From an uncultured Clostridium sp. (GTDB taxonomy: Bacteria > Bacillota_I > Bacilli_A > RF39 > UBA660), in contig CANEGO010000004.1 in the NCBI GenBank assembly GCA_947427095.1, positions 62,001 to 126,000 on the forward strand: 64,000 nt of DNA, read 5' to 3'. A program made the position numbers and the translations under genes. A model generated the notes under the pieces. The model did not search any database. It saw nothing but the letters and a program-made list of their open reading frames with translations, and had not been told where the DNA came from. Positions within the stretch are counted from its first letter, which is position 1. Every line of letters begins with the position of its first letter. Shown here in pieces: positions 10,335 through 24,959 of the stretch.

Positions 10335-10874
10335 TTAGAAAATATTATTTTTTAAAACTAAAGAAAATTTAGCCAAATTATTACTATCAATATTTGTCTC
10401 TTCTGACAAATAATATTTTTTTATAATTCTCATAATGCCATTATGTGTAACAACTAATATATTATCATTAGATTGTTGATTATTTAATAAATACTTAAAA
10501 AAACTATTTATTCTATCAACAACATCTTCAAGAGACTCAGAACCAACAGGATTTAACAAATAATTTCTTACAAGTTTCAAATATTCTATTTCGTAATCTT
10601 TCTTGTATTTCTCATTTAATTCACCTAAATCTCTTTGCGTTAAATATGGTGTAATTATAGGTTCTTGATATGGATATACTAATTTTGCAGTCTCGATTGT
10701 CCTTTTAAATGGAGAACAATAAACGTTATCAAAATCATGCTTATTAAATACGTTTTGTTTACACATAAATTTTCCATTATCATTCAATGGATAATCAAGG
10801 TTTGTTGCAATTAAGCCTTTTCCATTAAGATCAGTTGTAGCATGTCTTAAAAATGTTATATTCATATATATCAC
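10335..10874 (-). CDS. Histidine phosphatase (phosphoglycerate-mutase-like)
   Basis: NITFLRHATTDLNGKG ... VYCSPFKRTIETAKLVY ... ILVVTHNGIMR. Confidence 0.85.
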   Translation of the reverse strand: MIYMNITFLRHATTDLNGKGLIATNLDYPLNDNGKFMCKQNVFNKHDFDNVYCSPFKRTIETAKLVYPYQEPIITPYLTQRDLGELNEKYKKDYEIEYLKLVRNYLLNPVGSESLEDVVDRINSFFKYLLNNQQSNDNILVVTHNGIMRIIKKYYLSEETNIDSNNLAKFSLVLKNNIF

Positions 10875-10889
10875 CTTTATTAATTAAAT

Positions 10890-11594
10890 TTAATTATTTT
10901 TAGGTAGATATTTTTTTGAAACACCATTACTGTTTTTTCTTTTATCTATTTCCTTTGTTGCAAATTCATCCAAAGCTTCATGAAATTGTTTTAAAGAGCC
11001 ATTGTTATTTATAACATAAGAGAATGGCATATTAATTTCTCTATTTCCAACCAAGATTTCCTCCGAATCTTCAGAATAGACTAAATTTTTATATTCGAAT
11101 GTTTCCTTTTTACCTTTTGACTCATCTTTCTTTTTTGTTTTTTCAATTACTTGTTCTATTGTTATACTTAAATCTGCCTTTCTAGTTCCTCTTACAGAAT
11201 CAGTCCTTAATCTTTGGAATTCCCTCATTACTCTATTATTAAAATCGGCGTCAATATATAAAACACCCAAATCTTCTTTAAGTTTAGAGAATAAATATTT
11301 AATGGTTTTTATACCATACATTGTATCCATTACAACTATTTTTTTATCACCTGACATTTCATCAGCCTTTTTTATATATCTATCCCATAATTGTTCAAAA
11401 TTATTTTCATATTCTGTATCATACCATTCTTGAAATTCTAAATTTGAATTTGAATCCTTATAAACTTCTGGAAATATATTTCTAATTTTCAAATGTTTAA
11501 TATCATCAGAATAATTATCCGCTATATAATTTATTCCTCCACTTTTACCAGACTCTGATGGTCCAGTTACAAATATAAATTTTTTATTACTCAT
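10890..11594 (-). CDS. P-loop kinase (guanylate-kinase/AAA-like)
   Basis: KFIFVTGPSESGKSGGINYIAD Walker A; VLYIDADFNNRVMREFQRLR. Confidence 0.6.
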   Translation of the reverse strand: MSNKKFIFVTGPSESGKSGGINYIADNYSDDIKHLKIRNIFPEVYKDSNSNLEFQEWYDTEYENNFEQLWDRYIKKADEMSGDKKIVVMDTMYGIKTIKYLFSKLKEDLGVLYIDADFNNRVMREFQRLRTDSVRGTRKADLSITIEQVIEKTKKKDESKGKKETFEYKNLVYSEDSEEILVGNREINMPFSYVINNNGSLKQFHEALDEFATKEIDKRKNSNGVSKKYLPKNN

Positions 11595-12379
11595 TTTCTT
11601 AATTCCTTTCTTATTATATTAACGGGATGTTTATCAAAATCATCCACGTCAAACATTCCATAAATTTGATTTTCTAATATTTCGATTGATTTTTTTTCTT
11701 CAATAGAAGCTAACATAATTTTTAATAATTCATCAACATAATTATTAGGTAAATCTTTAATATTGAAATTCCAGTTTTTATTACCTAAAATAATTGTTCC
11801 TAAGGTATTCATACGCATACCTATATAATTAAAATTTCTATATAAAACTCTTTTCTCATAATCTAAATCATTCGGTGTTATAAACAACGAGGAATCTTTT
11901 CTTAATATTTTTGGTGGATCATAATCAAAAAATATTCCATTTTTTGTATAATTCCATATTGCAGAATCAATTCCTAAAGTAACATCATTTGAGTACTCCA
12001 GACTTTGAATTCCTTGCAAGACGCATATAAATATTCTCTTTATTTCTTCATATGTAACATCATTATTATCACATAGTAAGTTATCATTATCAATTAATCT
12101 ATTTATTTCATATATGTCTTTATCATCTTTAATTATCCCAACTATTTCATTGCATTTCAAATATGTTTTTAATTTTTCATAATATTCAATTAATAAATTT
12201 ATATAATTTCCATTATATCTTTGACTAATTTTCGGAGTGTTCAACTTTTTATAAAAATATCCATCAATAACACCATTAACTAAAGTGTATGCGGTTATTG
12301 GCACAAAATCCTTCTTACTATCTTCTAATATTTTTTTCTCTATATCATGAGGCAAATATTCTTTTTGATATAAAATCAT
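11591..12379 (-). CDS. Kinase-fold (APH-like) protein
   Basis: TLGIDSAIWNYTKNGIFFDYDPPKI resembles an APH catalytic/metal loop. Confidence 0.45.
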   Translation of the reverse strand: MILYQKEYLPHDIEKKILEDSKKDFVPITAYTLVNGVIDGYFYKKLNTPKISQRYNGNYINLLIEYYEKLKTYLKCNEIVGIIKDDKDIYEINRLIDNDNLLCDNNDVTYEEIKRIFICVLQGIQSLEYSNDVTLGIDSAIWNYTKNGIFFDYDPPKILRKDSSLFITPNDLDYEKRVLYRNFNYIGMRMNTLGTIILGNKNWNFNIKDLPNNYVDELLKIMLASIEEKKSIEILENQIYGMFDVDDFDKHPVNIIRKELRK

Positions 12380-13509
12380 TTTTCCAACTCCTTATATATT
12401 TGTTGTTGTAATTCTGAAACTTTCTTATTAGCACCACTAGGTCTATAAACCTTTACACTAGGTCTAACTTTTGGACTATAATTTCTCATAAATACATTAT
12501 CTTTATCTGTATAATTTCGATTTATTGATAGAGAAAATAAATCAGCAGAATCAAATCCAACTTCGTCAAATGGGACAAAATCTAAAACTAATTCCGGTAC
12601 AGAAGAAATAATATGCTTATCTCTATAAAACGTCGAATATACAAAATTAGTAGCAGCCGGAACAGTATGTTTAAATAAAAATTCATCTTCTTCAGTATAA
12701 ACACATAATTCTTTATTCTGTAATTTTTTCCCTTTTTCAAAATAATACCTTAATATTTGTTCATATTCTGACAAATAATTTTTAACCTCATTTAATGATA
12801 AATTATCATATAATATTTTTATTCCTTCAGGAATTTTAAGTATAGAACTACTATTGTCAATATGCTTATTAAGAATCGAAGAAAATTTATCATATGGTCT
12901 TTCTAAAACATATTTACATCCTAACTGTTTTTCATCTATATCTTTTATCATTAATTCTATATGTCCATGAATACATAGTTCAGATTTTGACAACTGATTA
13001 AATAAAACATTAATTCCTACCAAGTCACTGCCAATAACGCCTTTCTGAAGATGTTCGTATAAATCCTCTTGGATTTGAACTAACTCTTTTAAATAGTCAT
13101 CAGGTAAATCCTGTAAATTTTCTATCTTTAAAAGTTTTCTATCTTTTAAATAAATCATTAACCCACCAGGAAAATATGGAAATGTCGGAATACATATATC
13201 CCAATATTTATATCTTGAGGAATATGAATTTAATACCTTTCTTTCAAAATCATCAGTACACAATTTACAATGTTCATAAGCATTTCTTCTTTCTAAATAT
13301 ATAGAACCATCTAAAATTTTTCTAACCTTTTCTAATTCTTCTTTTGATAATGTTTCATTATCAAAAAACCTTTTAATAAGTTCGTTATTTACTACCCTTT
13401 TCTTTTTTCTATCTCCATATATCAAGCATTGTAATGTAGCAAATTCTTTTTCTAAATTATCATTAAAACCTATGTCAAAAAAGGTTTTATATTTAGTACT
13501 CTCTGTCAT
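12376..13509 (-). CDS. HIT/GalT-like protein
   Basis: CKLC motif, GINVLFNQLSKSELCIHGHIELMIK (HIT-like HxHxx), PFFPGGLMIY-type strand. Confidence 0.5.
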   Translation of the reverse strand: MTESTKYKTFFDIGFNDNLEKEFATLQCLIYGDRKKKRVVNNELIKRFFDNETLSKEELEKVRKILDGSIYLERRNAYEHCKLCTDDFERKVLNSYSSRYKYWDICIPTFPYFPGGLMIYLKDRKLLKIENLQDLPDDYLKELVQIQEDLYEHLQKGVIGSDLVGINVLFNQLSKSELCIHGHIELMIKDIDEKQLGCKYVLERPYDKFSSILNKHIDNSSSILKIPEGIKILYDNLSLNEVKNYLSEYEQILRYYFEKGKKLQNKELCVYTEEDEFLFKHTVPAATNFVYSTFYRDKHIISSVPELVLDFVPFDEVGFDSADLFSLSINRNYTDKDNVFMRNYSPKVRPSVKVYRPSGANKKVSELQQQIYKELEK

Positions 13510-13544
13510 ATTATACCCCCTAACCTAAGTATACTAAATAATAA

Positions 13545-14027
13545 TTATTTAATATCATTAACTACTATATGAAAGACTTTATTATTTTCTTTTATTTCAT
13601 TTTTAATACAAGAAGGCAATAAATTATATTTTTCTAATTCAGACAAATCAATCCATTTAAAATGATGTTGAATTATTCCACCTTTGTCATTTTCAATTCT
13701 ATTATAATCGATTTTTTCGTAATCATTTTCATCATTTAAATTAACCCTATAATAAAAATCTATCCCATGTGTTTTTTGGCTTCTTAAATTTACAAAGAAA
13801 TTTTCAGTTATTCCCAAAAATGAAGAAATATTAAAATCAAGATTAATTTCTTCTTTCAATTCTCTTAAGATTGCTTCTTCAGAATTTTCTCCAATTTCTA
13901 CATAACCACCTGGCAAACAATAAGAATCTTCACCATACTTATTAACTAATATTTTATTATTATAAATAAATACGCCTGATACTCTAAATTTAAATTTATA
14001 ATTTTCTCCTATAATTTTAACATCCAT
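13545..14027 (-). CDS. NUDIX hydrolase
   Basis: CLPGGYVEIGENSEEAILRELKEEINLDF Nudix box. Confidence 0.9.
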   Translation of the reverse strand: MDVKIIGENYKFKFRVSGVFIYNNKILVNKYGEDSYCLPGGYVEIGENSEEAILRELKEEINLDFNISSFLGITENFFVNLRSQKTHGIDFYYRVNLNDENDYEKIDYNRIENDKGGIIQHHFKWIDLSELEKYNLLPSCIKNEIKENNKVFHIVVNDIK

Positions 14028-14072
14028 ATTTCATGTCTCCTTTCATTTTCTATAATTATAAATTAGATAAAT

Positions 14073-14753
14073 TTAATTTTCAATAATATTCATTAGAAAT
14101 TTTTTTGCATAAATAATTATATTTTTATATTCATCATTATCATTAATATAATTTGTAATAAACTTTTCATAATCATAATATTCAAAGTTATAATTCTTAG
14201 CATAAATTTTAAAAACTTCATCATAATTTTTTGGTGTATATCCATCTAATATTAAAATAGCTTTCATAATTAAATAAGTCATCTTATATATCGTTTTTAT
14301 TTGTTCTTTATTTAAACTATCGTATAGAAAATATCTTTTATATATATGCATTCTCCAATTCAAATAAGGAACATGAGTATTTTTTATTTCATCAAAACTT
14401 ATTTGTGGTATTTCAAATCCTTCTTTTATAAACTGCAAATCAATTTTTTTATTATTTAACAAGTACAAATGATAATAAGTTTTAGGATCTATTTTTTTAT
14501 TAATGAATTCTTTTTCACTATAAATTGTTGTTCCAATCTTTACAGGAAAGCATTTTGAAATATCCTTTATTTTATCAACAATATCAAAATTATAATTTTT
14601 AACTACTAAAATTACGTCTATGTCACTCCAATTAACCATTACCTTTGAACTTGAGCTACTTCCAATAACAAGTAATAAAGATAATTCTTCTCTTAACTCA
14701 TTCTTCATCTTTTTTACATAATCCGAAATAACATTAGAATATTCATTTTTCAT
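14073..14753 (-). CDS. Nucleotidyltransferase-domain protein
   Basis: LLVIGSSSSSKVMVNWSDIDVILVVK (GSx10-12DxD). Confidence 0.7.
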   Translation of the reverse strand: MKNEYSNVISDYVKKMKNELREELSLLLVIGSSSSSKVMVNWSDIDVILVVKNYNFDIVDKIKDISKCFPVKIGTTIYSEKEFINKKIDPKTYYHLYLLNNKKIDLQFIKEGFEIPQISFDEIKNTHVPYLNWRMHIYKRYFLYDSLNKEQIKTIYKMTYLIMKAILILDGYTPKNYDEVFKIYAKNYNFEYYDYEKFITNYINDNDEYKNIIIYAKKFLMNIIEN

Positions 14754-14758
14754 TTAAT

Positions 14759-16402
14759 TTACCTCCTAGTATTTTTTTCTATAATATAATCACCCATTAC
14801 CAAATAATCTAAATCAGATTTACAAAACATAACCATTGCATCCTTTGGGCTTTCTACAATAGGCTCACCATTATCATTAAATGAAGTATTTAATAACACT
14901 GGAATATTTGTTAACTTGTAAAACTCTGACAATAATTTGTAAAATCTGCTATTTTGACTTTCATTTACAGTTTGAACTCTACCAGTATAATCCTCATGTA
15001 ATGTTGCAGGAATTTTATCTTTGGCAAATTCTGTACATACTGGTACTTTTAACATATATGGTGATATATCATCAATATCAAAATATTCTTTTACCTTTTC
15101 TTCCATAATTGATGGAGCGAATGGTCTAAATGACTCTCTATGCTTTATTCTAGCATTTAATATATCTTTCATCTCATGAGGAAATGGCGCACATAATATA
15201 CTTCTATTGCCTAAAGCTCTAGGCCCTATTTCACTAGCCCCTTGAAACCAACCGATTATTTTACCTTCACTTAACAATTTAGCAACATCTGACTCAACAT
15301 CATTACTTTTTCTATAATAAATATCGCACCCTTTAACCTCATATGGCAAAATAAACTTTTCTTGCTTTTTTTCTAATACATCTAAAATTTCTTCTTCAGT
15401 ATATTCTCTCGCTAAATATGGCGTTTTTAATTCTATCCTTTTTTCAAAGTTAAAATAATTATGATACCCATATAAAGCATTTCCTAAAGATTGACCCGTA
15501 TCATCACAACATGGTGCAACAAAAAGATTTTCAATAGGAGTTTCTTTTAATATTCTTTGGTTAACTATTCCATTTAGGAATACACCACCAGCTACACATA
15601 AATTTTTTATTTTATATTTATCATATAATTTATTAACTAATTCAAGAATTATCTTTTCAACTTGACTTTGAACATAATAAGCAGCATCTTTATTTTCATA
15701 ACCAGATTCAGGTTTGCCAAAATCTAAATTATTCTCTTTAATAAAGTTTAAGGCTCCATTAATATATTTTCCTTCGCATTTGCTTGATATTTCTAAATTT
15801 TCATTTATTTGAAATAAATCAACATTAAGATATTTATCCTTACCATAAGCAGATAACCCCATTGTTTTTCCAGCCTCTTGAGCACTCCAACCACAAAAAT
15901 TAGTGAATGTTTCGTAGGTTCTACCAATTCCTTTATACCTAGATCTATTTGGATTATTACCACCAACTTTTGTTATTTTATTACCCTTTCCAATATAATA
16001 ACTTTCTGTATCATTCAAATTACCTAATCCATCAATTACTATTATTATCGATTCATCAAAGTCAGATAAGAAGTAAGAACTATAAGCGTGTGATAAATGA
16101 TGATCCACAGTGATAAACTTAGTGTTATCATTTACAATACTTTTTAAATGTCCTTTGTATTCATTCTCTAAACGATTTCCATAGCAGCTAGAAACAAATA
16201 AATCAACATCACTTGTTTTAATTCCAAGTCCCTCTAAACAATAAACAAGAGAATATAAATAATCTTCTGAATACTTTTTTCTATTTAATCGTTCTTCTGC
16301 AATTGAAATTAACTTATTATTATGAATTAATGTACACCCAGCATTATGCCCTGTATTAAATCCTACAATAGTTTTATTAATTTTATTATCTAAATTAATC
16401 AT
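14759..16402 (-). CDS. Carbamoyltransferase (NodU/CmcH/TobZ family)
   Basis: VGFNTGHNAGCTLIHNNKLISIAEERLNRKKY; HHLSHAYSSYFLSDF; GASEIGPRALGNRSILCAP; FRPFAPSIMEE; LLNTSFNDNGEPIV. Confidence 0.93.
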   Translation of the reverse strand: MINLDNKINKTIVGFNTGHNAGCTLIHNNKLISIAEERLNRKKYSEDYLYSLVYCLEGLGIKTSDVDLFVSSCYGNRLENEYKGHLKSIVNDNTKFITVDHHLSHAYSSYFLSDFDESIIIVIDGLGNLNDTESYYIGKGNKITKVGGNNPNRSRYKGIGRTYETFTNFCGWSAQEAGKTMGLSAYGKDKYLNVDLFQINENLEISSKCEGKYINGALNFIKENNLDFGKPESGYENKDAAYYVQSQVEKIILELVNKLYDKYKIKNLCVAGGVFLNGIVNQRILKETPIENLFVAPCCDDTGQSLGNALYGYHNYFNFEKRIELKTPYLAREYTEEEILDVLEKKQEKFILPYEVKGCDIYYRKSNDVESDVAKLLSEGKIIGWFQGASEIGPRALGNRSILCAPFPHEMKDILNARIKHRESFRPFAPSIMEEKVKEYFDIDDISPYMLKVPVCTEFAKDKIPATLHEDYTGRVQTVNESQNSRFYKLLSEFYKLTNIPVLLNTSFNDNGEPIVESPKDAMVMFCKSDLDYLVMGDYIIEKNTRR

Positions 16403-17414
16403 TAATATTACTCCATTCCTTCATATAATTAATAAACTCTTTGAAAGTTTTAAAATCATTTAAATAAAATAATTCTAAATATTTCATTGTTAGATAAACG
16501 TCTATATTTTTCATTTTATTTAAATCAAAAACAGCAAGTGCTTTCATAGCTAAATAATTTTTAAAATCATCATACCAATTTTCATAATTAACTTTTGACA
16601 TAACTGGTAAAATTACTTTTTCCATATAGTAAATAATCGCATCTAATCTCATTGAACTAACATTTATATCTAAAGTCTTATTATTAACAAACTTATTTTT
16701 TACCATCCTTTTATAAATCCTATTATGGTTTTCAAATGCTTTAGAATTATACTTTGGAGACAAATACTCACATTGAATTAAATTGTACCAAAAGAATGTA
16801 GCAAATTCTGCCATGATAGGAACATATCCACCTGCTGTAAAATCAAATATAGTACCATCAATACATATATTTAAATCATTAGGATCACATTGAGAAATAA
16901 TACTCCATTTTTCTTTTTTAGAATTTACTTTATAGTAATGTCTTATTGATTTGTATATTGTCTTTATATCAATTTTATTTTTAAAATGATTTAGAATAAA
17001 ATTATAATTATCTTTTAATCTTGTATTTACTCGATCTTCAAAAAATATATTACAACTTGTACAACTAGTTAGCTTAATTGTTTTTAAAAAAACTTTTTTA
17101 TAATTATTTAATATTTTGTAATAATGATTATCTAATCTTTCATTTTCCATAAAATAATCAATCAATAAGCCTTGATTTTTAGTGATATTTTCATTGTATT
17201 CATAACCTACTATATTCCTTTGATTATTTTTAATCTTAAAATATCGCTCAGGGGTTTTGTAGTATTGACTTATTATGTCATAACCTTCTATTTCTTTTAT
17301 AAAATCTAAATTATTTAGAATCTTATAAAAAATCTTTTTATTGTATATTTCAAACACTCCATTAATATTATTTTTATTTTTATTTTCTACTAATTCTTTA
17401 ACATTTTTTTTCAT
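16395..17414 (-). CDS. APH-like phosphotransferase
   Basis: WSIISQCDPNDLNICIDGTIFDFTAGGYVPIMAEFATFFWY = APH catalytic loop plus IDF. Confidence 0.65.
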   Translation of the reverse strand: MKKNVKELVENKNKNNINGVFEIYNKKIFYKILNNLDFIKEIEGYDIISQYYKTPERYFKIKNNQRNIVGYEYNENITKNQGLLIDYFMENERLDNHYYKILNNYKKVFLKTIKLTSCTSCNIFFEDRVNTRLKDNYNFILNHFKNKIDIKTIYKSIRHYYKVNSKKEKWSIISQCDPNDLNICIDGTIFDFTAGGYVPIMAEFATFFWYNLIQCEYLSPKYNSKAFENHNRIYKRMVKNKFVNNKTLDINVSSMRLDAIIYYMEKVILPVMSKVNYENWYDDFKNYLAMKALAVFDLNKMKNIDVYLTMKYLELFYLNDFKTFKEFINYMKEWSNIND

Positions 17415-18016
17415 TACGAAACCTCTATTAAGTCATCATTCTTTAGTAATATTTTTTTTGCATTATTAGCTATTTTTAAATCATCTTTTTTATCTCCAAT
17501 TAACAATACACATTTTTGTGAAGAAAAGTTTAATTTTTTCTTTTTAGGAGTAATTATTAAAGATAAATCAACATTTCTTAAATTGTTAGCTTTAATATCT
17601 ACATTTTTATCATCAATATTATTTGTTTTAAGAAATTTAGTTATTATTTCTTCTAAACCAGAAGAATATATTATTACATTAACATCATTATTAATTGCAT
17701 TCTTTAAAATATCAATAGTACTTTTATTTGCCTTAAATTCTCTATCAATATCTATTTTATCAATCATGCTTTTTGCATTATATTTTAATAATAATTTTAA
17801 TTTTAAATACCATATTAATTTATAAAACATAGAGGACAAAGCTATATTAGTAAAGAAATCCAAAACCTTCTTTTTATTATAATAACTTTCTGGCAAATAT
17901 TTACTAAATACCCCAATGCTTGAATCTGAATTTTGAGTTGTTAAGGTATAATCAAAATCAAATACTATTGTTGAAATTTTACCCTTATTAATTTTTTTCA
18001 AAATTTCATTATACAT
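17414..18016 (-). CDS. HAD-superfamily phosphatase
   Basis: TIVFDFDYTLTTQNSD ... VIIYSSGLEEII ... LLIGDKKDDLKIANNAK; start set at MYNEILKKI. Confidence 0.8.
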   Translation of the reverse strand: MYNEILKKINKGKISTIVFDFDYTLTTQNSDSSIGVFSKYLPESYYNKKKVLDFFTNIALSSMFYKLIWYLKLKLLLKYNAKSMIDKIDIDREFKANKSTIDILKNAINNDVNVIIYSSGLEEIITKFLKTNNIDDKNVDIKANNLRNVDLSLIITPKKKKLNFSSQKCVLLIGDKKDDLKIANNAKKILLKNDDLIEVS

Positions 18017-18779
18017 TATTAACCACCTTATAATATTTGCAATTAACAATTCTTGATAATCCATCTATTGAAAGAATCTCACATTCACTACTTATAAAAA
18101 ATAATGTTTTTTCTTTATTCAACGAGTGTGACTTACCTTTAAATCTTATTTTTACATTCCCGCTTATTATAAAAATAAATTTATCATTTTCTTCTAATGG
18201 TATATTATTCAATTCCGATTCTACTTTTATTTTTTTTAAGTCACCACGATATTGAGGCAATAACCTTTTATAATAATCTACTTCCTTATTTACTTTTCTT
18301 CCCAATTTATCATATATTCTGATTGTTTCATTATTATCAAATAAATTATTATCTTGTTCTTCAAATACTATAGAACCCTTTCTTAATGAATGTATTGTAT
18401 TCTTCGGGATATCCACATAGTCCAAATATGGAAATTTTTTAACACCATTTTCATCTTCTATATTACTTAAATTAGATAGAGATAACCATCTTTCATTCTT
18501 TATAGGATGAATTTGCACAGAAGTATCATTGATATCATTTTCTAATACTTTAAATAATTTATCGGTGAATGGAACAAATACTTTTTCGCATCCCCAAGAT
18601 AACTTATTTAACGTAAAAGGAACTTCAAACCAACCTTTTTTATACAATTCTTCAAGAACATTCAAGTAATCTAAAGTCACTTTGTTATTATCATTTAATA
18701 ATAACTTTAATTTGGAATCTTTAAATGCTGATAAATTAAATTTATTATCATAATTTATTTTTATTATTTTATTACTCAT
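18009..18779 (-). CDS. Class I phosphomannose-isomerase-like cupin protein
   Basis: TSVQIHPIKNERW ... YLDYVDIPKNTIHSLRKGSIVFEEQDN ... RIYDKLGR. Confidence 0.6.
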   Translation of the reverse strand: MSNKIIKINYDNKFNLSAFKDSKLKLLLNDNNKVTLDYLNVLEELYKKGWFEVPFTLNKLSWGCEKVFVPFTDKLFKVLENDINDTSVQIHPIKNERWLSLSNLSNIEDENGVKKFPYLDYVDIPKNTIHSLRKGSIVFEEQDNNLFDNNETIRIYDKLGRKVNKEVDYYKRLLPQYRGDLKKIKVESELNNIPLEENDKFIFIISGNVKIRFKGKSHSLNKEKTLFFISSECEILSIDGLSRIVNCKYYKVVNNV

Positions 18780-19522
18780 ACTAAATTTCTACCCCCATCT
18801 ATTGTAAAAACACTTCCAGTTGTTGCAATAGAAAAATCGTTAATAACATTATAAATATAAGTGGCTATTTCCTCGGGTTCACATATTTTTTTCAATGGTA
18901 TCCTTTCTCGGGTTCTATTAACAGACTCTTTATCAAGGTCAAATCCTTTATTCATATTAGTGAATGTAGCTCCTATAGCTAAAGCATTAACTGTTATCTT
19001 TCTTTCTGATAATTCTAATGCAAAACCTTTTGTCATGATTTCTAAACCAGCTTTTGATATATCATAATGCAATTTATGTATTCTTGGCTTGTTATAATGT
19101 GTAGATATTATATTTAGAATGGTTGAATTATTTTTCATTCTTTTTGCAACTAATTGGCTGACAATAAAAGTTCCATTTATATTCACATCTATAACCTTTT
19201 TCCAATCATCCAAATCTATTTCTAATACATTAGAACATGTTTGGATAGCAGCATTATTTATCAAAATATCTATATTTCCATATTTTAAAAATATTTCTTC
19301 AATAATTAAATTCATTTTTTTATAATTTGTTATATCACAATTGTATACAATTAAATCATCATATTTTTTTATATGATTACATCCAAATTTATCGTTATCA
19401 ATTACTATAACTATGCTACCTTCTTGTTTGAATTTCATTGCAGTAGCCTTTCCTATTCCTCCAGCACCGCCTGTTATTAATACAACTTTCTTATTTAAAT
19501 GTGTTTTATTTTTATTTAACAT
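18776..19522 (-). CDS. SDR-family oxidoreductase
   Basis: VVLITGGAGGIGKATAMKF ... INNAAIQT ... NIISTHYNKPRIHKLHYDISKAGLE; Tyr at the active-site position and YDISK. Confidence 0.9.
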   Translation of the reverse strand: MLNKNKTHLNKKVVLITGGAGGIGKATAMKFKQEGSIVIVIDNDKFGCNHIKKYDDLIVYNCDITNYKKMNLIIEEIFLKYGNIDILINNAAIQTCSNVLEIDLDDWKKVIDVNINGTFIVSQLVAKRMKNNSTILNIISTHYNKPRIHKLHYDISKAGLEIMTKGFALELSERKITVNALAIGATFTNMNKGFDLDKESVNRTRERIPLKKICEPEEIATYIYNVINDFSIATTGSVFTIDGGRNLV

Positions 19523-19574
19523 CAGATTTTAATCCCCCTTTTCTTAAAATATTATTATATTAAACCAATAAAAA

Positions 19575-19693
19575 GGTGGCAAAAACACATAAGTGCTTGC
19601 CACCATGAAAATACTGCCACCATTTGGGCAAACACTAGCACCCAAATTGATTTAATTTGCAATTACCTTACTATAATTGGAAAAAATTGTCAA
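19575..19693 (-). promoter_or_regulatory. Promoter and transcription-attenuator leader B ahead of the 12-gene carbamoyltransferase operon
   Basis: TTGACA 19688-19693; hairpin 1 TTTGGG/CCCAAA 19623-19646; terminator GGTGGCAA..TTGCCACC 19575-19604 plus T tract; alternative pairing of 19627-19636 with 19592-19601. Confidence 0.65.
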
Positions 19694-19781
19694 TACATTA
19701 TGTTAATCCTTTTTTAAAATGGTTCCAAACAGATATAGTATAATTTCTACAATAATTAAAAAAACAGGATATTAAATCTTG

Positions 19782-19976
19782 TCAATTTCTATTTTTAGTT
19801 AGTATAAATCCAACCAATCCAACAATAACTATTATCATGCCCACAATAAGTATCCCACCATTACTTTCCTTGCCTGAAATGGCTTCTTTAGCTATTGAAG
19901 CGGTATATAATGAATCATAATACTTAATTGTTAATTTATCAAATAAACTTAATGTCTTTGTCATACTTTGTTCCAA
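19782..19976 (-). CDS. Small single-TM protein (64 aa)
   Basis: ORF with GGILIVGMIIVIVGLVGFIL helix; follows 20011..20700 on the same strand. Confidence 0.55.
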   Translation of the reverse strand: MEQSMTKTLSLFDKLTIKYYDSLYTASIAKEAISGKESNGGILIVGMIIVIVGLVGFILTKNRN

Positions 19977-20010: not shown

Positions 20011-20700
20011 CTACTTCTCTTTCTTTTGTTTTAATTTTCGCGTATCAACTTCATCAAAGTTTCCTTCAATTGAAAAATATATCATATAAGTTACGAATAT
20101 TTCCATAGATGTCATTAATAATAATTCTGGATGCGTTGATTGAATTAACATTACCACTATACCACCAGCAATATATATAAATAATGGTGAATATTTTTTC
20201 ACATCAAATTTTTTAGAATTTTTAAACATACTAAATATTCCTATAAGAGTTAATATTTCAGATAAAACATATATCATTTTAGCAGCCATTCCATATGAAT
20301 ATACTTTTCCATTAGTATTAACATAGTTTAATGGTAAAATAAATATTAATGCTGTAAAAACTATAAATAAAGCTATCACTATCTTTTTCAACTTAACATA
20401 ATTTCTATTATTATCTAAATTATATGATATTACGAAAATATATAAAGTAAATAATAATATCCATATAAGTAGATAAACCAAATAAATTCTAGAAACAATA
20501 TAATTTATTACTGGCATGGTTTGATAATTTAAAACCGTATAAAAACATGCAAATCCAATTATTATTCCAATAAAATTAGTAAAAACCAAAGATTTAAAAA
20601 TACGATGTTTTAATGTATCATTTGTTTTTCTTTTACAATTGAATAAAAGCATTATACTATAAAACGCACTTAATATACAAAAATATAAATTACTTATCAT
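20011..20700 (-). CDS. Multi-TM protein resembling the sensor half of membrane histidine kinases, with no kinase domain
   Basis: About 7 hydrophobic segments, ends SMEIFVTYMIYFSIEGNFDEV... Confidence 0.5.
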   Translation of the reverse strand: MISNLYFCILSAFYSIMLLFNCKRKTNDTLKHRIFKSLVFTNFIGIIIGFACFYTVLNYQTMPVINYIVSRIYLVYLLIWILLFTLYIFVISYNLDNNRNYVKLKKIVIALFIVFTALIFILPLNYVNTNGKVYSYGMAAKMIYVLSEILTLIGIFSMFKNSKKFDVKKYSPLFIYIAGGIVVMLIQSTHPELLLMTSMEIFVTYMIYFSIEGNFDEVDTRKLKQKKEK

Positions 20701-20738
20701 AAAAAGCCTCCTACATTTTTATTGTAACATAATAATAT

Positions 20739-22754
20739 TTAAATATTTAAATTTTTTATAGGATCTTTACACTTTTCTTTTGATTGTGAATCATCACTAA
20801 ATTTGTTAACATTTGTAATTTTATAACAAATACTTTTTCTTTTTTCTTCCTTAATGCCTTCTTTTTCTTCTTTTTCAGTCACTATTTTTCTTGCGTTATC
20901 CAAAATAATATCATCATCAATGTTTGTGCTGTTCTCTATTTCACATATATAATCATATTTTAAATCAGATGAGTTTTTTATTTTGCAACTAATTCCCTCG
21001 TGCATTGAGTTCAATAAATCTACAATTTCAATTGCCTTAAAATCTTTTTTACCAATTTTAGTAAGAGGAATTTGATCTACTATAATAACATCAAAAATAT
21101 TATTTCTTTCATTCATATTATCAGAAACAATATTTTTAACCAATTCTTCAACTATGGCTTCATCAGAATTTTCAGTATTATTCAAAGAAACATAAGCTTT
21201 TGGCACTTCCCCTTTTGCATGAAAAGGGTCTTTCATTGGAACAATAACACAATCTTTTATAATGTCTAATGTTTCTACCATATCTTCTATTGCTGGACTA
21301 GCAATTTTATAACCATTATACATAGTTATCATTTTTCTCATTCTTCCTATAATATCTAATTCACCATTTTCATCTAGAAAACCAACATCACCAGTACGAT
21401 AATATATATTCCCATCAGTATCTTTATACAAAACTTTCTTAGTTTCTTCTTCCATATTATAATATCCTGACATAACAGTAGGGCCGCTTATCACAACTTC
21501 TCCTATTTCTCCAACCGGTAATATTTCTTTAGTATCTAAATCTATTATACTTATATTTACATGGTTAAATGGTTTTCCTACTTTCTTTTTATCGCATCCT
21601 TCAAAAATGGTACAAGTTGCAGCCGCAGAAGTTTCAGAGCTACCATAACCAGTATCAATTTTAACTTTTTCCTTTTTTAAAGGTTGCCTTTGACTAAAAA
21701 AATCATTTAATTCATCAAGTACTTTAGGCACAACCTTTTGTCCACCTACTATAATTATATCAATAAATGATAAATCAGTTTTTTTACCTGTTTCCAACTC
21801 CCTTTTTTCAATGTTAATTTTAAACTCCTCTAAAAAAGATGGCACAGTAAAGATAATATTAGGATTTTTATCACATATATCTCTTATAAAGGTTTCTACT
21901 GAGTATAAAGGTTCTAACTCAACCGGAATTCCAAGTGTTATAGGTACATTTAAATTATCTAAAAATCCAAACGCTGTGTACATTGAAATATTGCCTAAAA
22001 TTTTAGTATCATATTTTAAAATTTTAGTAAGTTCTTCAGTTTCCATATGATATTGAGCTAAAGCAACACCATTTTTATTAGTTAATTCAACTCCTTTAGG
22101 AACACCAGTGGTACCCCCAGTATGAACAATTAAAGCAATATCATCGCTTAAACCTTCAAAATTCATTTCATATTTACCAAATATATTTTTTAAGTTTTTG
22201 CCTTTATTAAAAAAATCGTTCCACATAATAAAATTTGAAGTTGAAAGTGCTTCTTTAACGTCCAATCTTAGCTCTTTTGATTTTTTTACTAATTCTTTAT
22301 TTCTTAGACTTTTTAATTGTACTCCAAATGGAATTGAATTAGAATAAGGTGCAATTATACATTTAATCTTCTTATCACTTAATTCATTTAATGCATTACT
22401 TAAATTTTTACAATTAACATCAGAACAAACAACAACTCCTCCATCAATTTCTTCAAGATAGTTTTTTATATCTCTTGATGACGACAACGGATGTATTGGA
22501 TTTACTATAGCTCCAATCATATTAAGAGCATAATAGGAATACAAAAATTCAGGAGTATTTATAGGCATAAGTGTAACTATATCACCTTTTTTTATTCCTA
22601 ATTCTTTAAAAGAATTTGCAGTTATTGTAACGTTTCTAAAAAATTCATCATATGTTATATTTTTTTCCATATAATAAAATACAGTTTTATTAAGATGATT
22701 TTTATGTTGATTATATATATTTTCTATTATAGATATAGCAGGAATATTACTCAT
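20739..22754 (-). CDS. AMP-dependent synthetase/ligase (acyl-CoA synthetase-like) with about 90-aa C-terminal extension
   Basis: LIVHTGGTTGVPKGVELTN, DTGYGSSETSAAATC, YYRTGDVGFLDENGELDIIGRMRKMI, PLTKIGKKDFKAIE. Confidence 0.9.
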   Translation of the reverse strand: MSNIPAISIIENIYNQHKNHLNKTVFYYMEKNITYDEFFRNVTITANSFKELGIKKGDIVTLMPINTPEFLYSYYALNMIGAIVNPIHPLSSSRDIKNYLEEIDGGVVVCSDVNCKNLSNALNELSDKKIKCIIAPYSNSIPFGVQLKSLRNKELVKKSKELRLDVKEALSTSNFIMWNDFFNKGKNLKNIFGKYEMNFEGLSDDIALIVHTGGTTGVPKGVELTNKNGVALAQYHMETEELTKILKYDTKILGNISMYTAFGFLDNLNVPITLGIPVELEPLYSVETFIRDICDKNPNIIFTVPSFLEEFKINIEKRELETGKKTDLSFIDIIIVGGQKVVPKVLDELNDFFSQRQPLKKEKVKIDTGYGSSETSAAATCTIFEGCDKKKVGKPFNHVNISIIDLDTKEILPVGEIGEVVISGPTVMSGYYNMEEETKKVLYKDTDGNIYYRTGDVGFLDENGELDIIGRMRKMITMYNGYKIASPAIEDMVETLDIIKDCVIVPMKDPFHAKGEVPKAYVSLNNTENSDEAIVEELVKNIVSDNMNERNNIFDVIIVDQIPLTKIGKKDFKAIEIVDLLNSMHEGISCKIKNSSDLKYDYICEIENSTNIDDDIILDNARKIVTEKEEKEGIKEEKRKSICYKITNVNKFSDDSQSKEKCKDPIKNLNI

Positions 22755-22782
22755 CTTTATTTCTCCTCCTTATTTTTTAAAG

Positions 22783-22902
22783 AAAAAAGTGTCTTGTTTG
22801 CAAACAAGACACTTAAGAATTGCTTGCACAAATGTTTCTGTACAAGCAAACATTAACAAAAATTACGAAGTATATACTACTCATATTCTTTCTTTTTGTC
22901 AA
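22783..22902 (-). promoter_or_regulatory. Promoter and transcription-attenuator leader C ahead of the AMP-ligase operon
   Basis: TTGACA 22897-22902 -N17- TAGTAT 22874-22879; hairpin 1 22820-22849; perfect 26-bp terminator palindrome 22788-22813 followed by T6; ATG at 22754. Confidence 0.7.

Positions 22903-22943: not shown

Positions 22944-24959
<2,016 letters not shown>

Follow-up and report, generated by a model that had tools for sequence, protein, structure and literature searches.

Leader C, a stretch of the minus strand between ligA and an AMP-ligase gene, is probably a cis-acting transcription attenuator that stands before an exchangeable module encoding the AMP-ligase, a seven-helix membrane protein (7TM), and a 64-aa protein. 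This reading comes from a comparison of related sequences, in all 13 of which a promoter lies upstream and an intrinsic terminator (T) lies between the promoter and the gene, and in which an antiterminator (AT) that overlaps both an upstream hairpin (H1) and the terminator has been kept in evolution. The window, by which we mean the whole stretch of 64,000 nucleotides that was analysed, belongs to a genome (G000) of 1.28 Mb that is 93% complete. The host genus, whose members are uncultured gut bacteria, is Candidatus Aphodocola, which is CAG-594 of GTDB in the order RF39, according to NCBI taxonomy and the paper that names it (PMC8035907). The features are listed in Table 1.

Table 1. Features of leader C and of the genes around it, in positions of the window
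Feature	Position	Strand	Remark
AMP-ligase (adenylate-forming enzyme)	20739..22754	(-)	Pfam AMP-binding, E = 1.3e-59; highly variable in the genus
Seven-helix membrane protein (7TM), second module gene	20011..20700	(-)	Exchanged with the ligase
64-aa protein with one hydrophobic segment, third gene	19782..19976	(-)	Strongly conserved
ligA, constant left neighbour	22944..24923	(-)	41 nt from its end to the -35 element
-35 element TTGACA	22897..22902	(-)	Same place in 13 of 13 orthologs
-10 element TAGTAT	22874..22879	(-)	TAATAT, TAAGAT or TAGTAT in orthologs
P0 5' strand AATGTTT	22848..22854	(-)	Pairs with the H1 loop
P0 3' strand AAACATT	22831..22837	(-)	H1 loop and its flanks
Hairpin 1 (H1), proposed anti-antiterminator	22820..22849	(-)	Found in 13 orthologs
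H1 3' arm TGCAAGCAA, also AT 5' strand	22820..22828	(-)	AT of 8-13 bp in 13 of 13
AT 3' strand TTGTTTGCA, terminator 5' arm and loop	22799..22807	(-)	
Intrinsic terminator T, stem-loop of 12 bp	22787..22814	(-)	z = -5.6
T6 run of the terminator	22783..22788	(-)	
Shine-Dalgarno sequence AGGAGG of the AMP-ligase gene	22765..22770	(-)	

Layout and distribution of leader C

The preliminary description of this DNA had proposed a promoter of the form TTGACA-N17-TAGTAT followed by a hairpin and by a terminator with a T6 run about 30 nt before the ATG, and each of these elements was found where it had been placed. The two promoter elements have 10 of 12 promoter matches, but in a promoter scan promoter-like sites were as frequent in shuffles as in the real sequence and therefore the evidence for the promoter of leader C is that it is conserved in 13 species. 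Transcription would start near position 22867. The stem of H1 (22849-22837 with 22832-22820) has 13 bp and a calculated energy of -16.2 kcal/mol (RNAfold, z = -4.2), that of T (22814-22803 with 22798-22787) has -14.7 kcal/mol, and both fold far below their shuffles. The whole of leader C folds at -30.9 kcal/mol compared to -15.1 +/- 3.0 kcal/mol in dinucleotide shuffles (z = -5.3), and none of 200 shuffles was as good. From the end of the T run to the ATG of the AMP-ligase gene (22754) there are 28 nt.

Orthologs were sought upstream of AMP-ligase relatives and by a covariance model in 18 genomes of the genus. An intact leader C was found in 13 of these, once per genome and with scores of 79.7-110.5 bits, and in every case it lies directly behind ligA and ahead of the AMP-ligase gene and keeps the promoter, H1, T, and an AT of 8-13 bp. 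A 14th covariance-model match, also at ligA, is a decayed copy in G003 from which the -35 element and the terminator are gone, and in G008 leader C and all three module genes are missing together. Three of the five genus genomes that have no intact leader are only 67-73% complete and hence its absence there means little. In the window's genome no second copy of leader C was found by the RNA model or by a DNA similarity search, and flanking repeats as a sign of site-specific recombination were set aside on this result. When the search was extended to 386 genomes of the family with the RNA model under strict filters, only chance-like matches were obtained, in a search that scored about 10 candidates per genome and may have missed weak relatives. 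The matches to the pattern GYTTGTAYRGRAACA outside the genus lacked the leader layout on inspection, and in a pattern scan of GTDB r220, in which 110 stretches matched and loci L098-L177 were inspected, the matches were likewise chance-like. Leader C was thus found nowhere other than in Candidatus Aphodocola and appears to be specific to it.

Compensatory changes and a fourth helix

It had been noted earlier that the 3' arm of H1 can pair with the 5' arm of the terminator with one G-U, and this is correct: TGCAAGCAA and TTGTTTGCA form 9 bp. In the window's leader alone this complementarity is modestly above chance, with p about 0.03, and for that reason it is the comparative evidence that carries the argument for AT. 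AT can be formed in all 13 leaders, each of which forms a core of seven pairs, and the leaders fall into two AT classes, GCARGCA/TGTTTGC in ten of them and GCARGTA/TACTTGC in the other three (G002, G010, and G016), with substitutions from C-G to U-A and from G.U to G-C. When the arms of G002, G010, and G016 were combined with terminators of the other class, the AT duplex went from -14 to about -6 kcal/mol, and in the reverse combination, in which the other arms were put with the terminators of these three, it was between -7.0 and -11.3 kcal/mol. Up to 8 kcal/mol was lost in such clade-mismatched combinations. In the fixed-register blocks of AT 91% of the cells pair, two-sided changes occur in five cells, and none of 500 shuffles, which ignore kinship, reached the covariation score; the sequences compared are few and related, and the main change in AT is probably one event in the clade of G002, G010, and G016. 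One extra AT position is A-U in G001 and its relatives and G-C in G010 and its relatives, and the 5' arm of H1 changes there too, so that three strands change together.

The terminator itself has two-sided changes in 7 of 11 pairs and its stem is largely replaced between the classes. Despite this replacement around it, TTGC(A) in the terminator 5' arm and loop stays constant, which a terminator alone would not require. In H1 there is little covariation, and its 5' arm hardly varies.

The comparison also gives moderate support to a fourth helix, P0, in which AATGTTT at the 5' flank of H1 can pair with AAACATT in and around its loop. In P0 92.2% of the cells are paired and three of the seven pairs, namely pairs 1, 2, and 7, have two-sided changes (A-U/U-A, A-U/G-C, and U-A/C-G, respectively). 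No slid register matched it in the share of cells paired or in covariation score, a slippage of +2 gave an equal number of two-sided pairs, and the measures of P0 were reached by 23 to 89 of 500 shuffles. P0 is compatible with AT and not with the full H1, and H1 and P0 are therefore mutually exclusive helices. The preliminary description had missed P0 and in this respect was incomplete. The rest of its attenuator reading, i.e., H1 as an anti-antiterminator, the exchange of an arm, and a terminator ahead of the gene, is supported by the 13 orthologs, by compensatory substitutions in both AT and T, and by the fact that leader and module were lost jointly.

The proposed switch and its alternatives

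The attenuator would operate as follows. The nascent RNA would first form P0 between the 5' flank and the later loop of H1, before H1 itself can form. In the OFF state the next arm would invade P0 and form H1, which as anti-antiterminator would leave the terminator free to fold, and in the ON state this arm would not join H1 and would instead form AT with the terminator 5' arm and loop, by which termination would be blocked. Read-through would therefore correspond to P0 with AT and termination to H1 with T. In the full-length RNA H1 with T is the minimum-energy fold in all 13 leaders, and for this reason the ON state would need help or kinetics. Since the full-length RNA is OFF at equilibrium, an event that sets the balance is to be expected, and this could be the stabilisation of P0 or H1 by a protein or a small molecule, or a pause of RNA polymerase. 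Before the 3' arm of the terminator is made, P0 with AT and H1 are close in stability. In transcripts that reach just past the AT strand, P0 with AT, or AT, dominates in G006, G004, G001, G017, G015, and G007, H1 dominates in G000, G005, G010, G016, and G002, and G013 and G014 are mixed. For truncated transcripts of G000 the equilibrium ensemble contains hardly any AT. These calculations, which are of equilibrium and not of kinetics, suggest that ahead of the terminator the switch may be near balance in several species and biased toward termination in others, including that of the window.

If the balance were set by a riboswitch, P0 and the core of H1 would fold jointly into a compact pseudoknot, to which a small molecule would bind and which would feed into the AT/T switch. 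The strands of P0 and H1 are arranged like those of an H-type pseudoknot, there is hardly any variation in the core GCTTGTAYAGRAACA, including an A and a G that are not needed for H1 in all species, and control would be kept while the enzyme changes. We nevertheless regard a riboswitch as unlikely, because the 5' strands of P0 and H1 are 0 nt apart and the others 0-4 nt, so that their full co-formation looks sterically unlikely, because riboswitches are not usually confined to one genus, and because leader C gave no covariance-model match to a known riboswitch or T-box family at the gathering score (Rfam 15). Its sole sub-threshold match with E < 0.1 was RsaF, with 31.8 bits against 60, and this covers the terminator and the ribosome site and not the core. 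The only match in the window at the Rfam gathering score is RNase P RNA class B (RF00011, L006; 28617-28966, minus strand, 281 bits).

The place of leader C next to ligA allows another explanation. Across the 13 genomes the -35 element follows the ligA stop at 6-42 nt, no terminator was found between this stop and the promoter in any of them, and the first terminator behind ligA is T each time. The earlier statement that T is not simply the ligA terminator was right, though T does hold this position too. Stable 5' hairpins, moreover, are common, and H1 and T could be an RNA-stability or 3'-end structure and the ligA terminator, with an unregulated promoter and constant read-through. This is quite improbable, as a ligA terminator would need neither a promoter in front of it nor a conserved loop core, and it needs no AT complementarity that follows the replaced terminator. 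In addition, the ligA of G008, which is without the module, has its own hairpin and T run (AATAAGGTAC..GTATCTTATTTTTT) and is followed by the 156-aa gene, which in other genomes stands after the module.

Leader C also resembles the LoaP-controlled dfn leader of Bacillus velezensis, in which a small 5'-leader hairpin and then a terminator stand at the head of the operon (PMC12691694). By analogy, H1 would be the recruitment site for a processive antitermination factor, i.e., a NusG paralog such as LoaP, T would be its first target, and AT would be incidental. We consider this very unlikely because exactly one NusG was found in each of the 18 genus genomes, with no NusG paralog, and the NusG of G000 is the housekeeping copy, as it adjoins the genes for a SecE-like protein and ribosomal proteins. 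Furthermore, the H1 loop is AGRAACAU-like and not of the UNCG type, and the coordinated change of arm and terminator would be left unexplained, whereas leader C appears to use arm exchange and not a recruited elongation factor. Finally, it is hardly credible that a leader peptide (ATG TTT GCT TGT ACA GRA ACA, inside P0/H1) is translated and that ribosome stalling sets the fold, for although ATG, GTG or TTG is at the start place in 12 of the 13 leaders, G013 has AAG, a Shine-Dalgarno sequence is lacking, three substitutions fall in the conserved codons and two of them are nonsynonymous (ACA/ATA and GAA/GGA), and the frames diverge after seven codons with no single-codon run.

Three known kinds of attenuator were also compared with leader C. 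A translated peptide with conserved codons, as in trp-type leader-peptide attenuators, was not found in it. The rplJL leader of Bacillus subtilis (L10(L12)4; PMC4538822) has the same set of mutually exclusive anti-antiterminator, antiterminator, and terminator, but leader C has no L10 target by Rfam, precedes an AMP-ligase gene and not a ribosomal protein gene, and has in P0 an extra helix that competes with H1. In the pyr attenuators (PyrR; PMC7430163) a hairpin with a conserved loop is the anti-antiterminator and its stabilisation allows termination, but the genes behind leader C are unrelated, it gave no Rfam match to these attenuators, and the PyrR recognition sequence ARUCCAGAGAGGYU is absent from it. 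In the window this sequence, with up to three mismatches, is no more frequent than by chance.

Gene exchange behind leader C and comparison with leader B

In the genus the mean identities are 85.5% for ligA, 76% for the leader, 37% for the 7TM protein, and 33% for the ligase. The distances between leaders correlate with those of ligA (Spearman 0.56, Mantel p 0.0005) but not with those of the ligase (Spearman -0.06, p 0.65), and the distances of ligase and 7TM correlate with each other (0.30, p 0.0065). For example, G001 and G017 have identical leaders and LigA proteins that are 98% identical but their ligases are only 28% identical, and conversely G005 and G010 have ligases that are 89% identical behind leaders of different classes. 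Since the leader tracks ligA and not the ligase, it stays fixed while the genes for the enzyme and the 7TM protein behind it are exchanged. The ligase and 7TM genes (20011-22754; L073-L084) are exchanged together between species, and the exchanged pair is bounded by ligA and leader C on one side and by the conserved 64-aa gene on the other. The 7TM protein has an AlphaFold pLDDT of 78 and gave weak GPCR-like matches only (E > 0.001) in a fold search, and models of anti-phage defence matched none of the three module proteins. An island at 10335-19522 on the minus strand, with SDR, HAD, NodU-type carbamoyltransferase, nucleotidyltransferase-like, NUDIX, and histidine-phosphatase genes, sits between the module and the 156-aa and GGDEF genes, which in other species directly follow the module.

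Leader B (window 19530-19700, minus strand), which has the near-invariant core ATGGTGGCAGTATTTTCATGGTGGCAARCACTT, is like leader C in having a promoter, a hairpin 1, a terminator, and an arm exchange, and in six aligned copies its arm GTGTTTGCC is complementary to GGCAARCAC of the terminator 5' arm. From this shared layout the preliminary description had concluded that both operons are under common control, a conclusion that we do not retain. The two leaders have no sequence homology, the core of leader B is far more conserved, and leader B is found at several loci, ahead of other genes; in most genomes that carry leader C the search for it returned nothing at E <= 0.01, or else just short matches with low scores. 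It recurs at non-orthologous loci of the genus (L087, L088, L089, L090, and L097) with different downstream genes, which by eye are SDR, guanylate-kinase-like, HAD, GTP-cyclohydrolase-like, and radical-SAM-like, and it may mark exchangeable gene islands. An Rfam search with leader B gave no match. The AT cores of leaders B and C (in C, 22820-22828 and 22799-22807) contain the same two complementary words, GTTTGC and GCARGC, with their order reversed, which may be due to chance. The two leaders could still use the same general mechanism.

A broader reading, which we offer tentatively and hold to be doubtful, is that P0 and H1, as a pseudoknot or as alternating helices, make up an RNA sensor of a new class, through which a general signal, either a metabolite or a protein, would drive a four-helix transcription switch at a fixed site while the enzyme and the 7TM protein are exchanged. 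As part of this same tentative reading, the exchange behind a fixed leader would resemble a polymorphic signalling or surface-modification locus. Regulatory RNAs of RF39 are essentially unstudied, and the one genus-naming paper found, in the part of it that was available, only names and describes the genus. For such bacteria leader C would provide a compact and testable switch with natural compensatory variants. That the leader stays constant over the exchanged enzyme and 7TM genes argues that what is sensed is something common to all the variants, and not the product of one enzyme, and this would narrow down what the signal could be and what the AMP-ligase module does.
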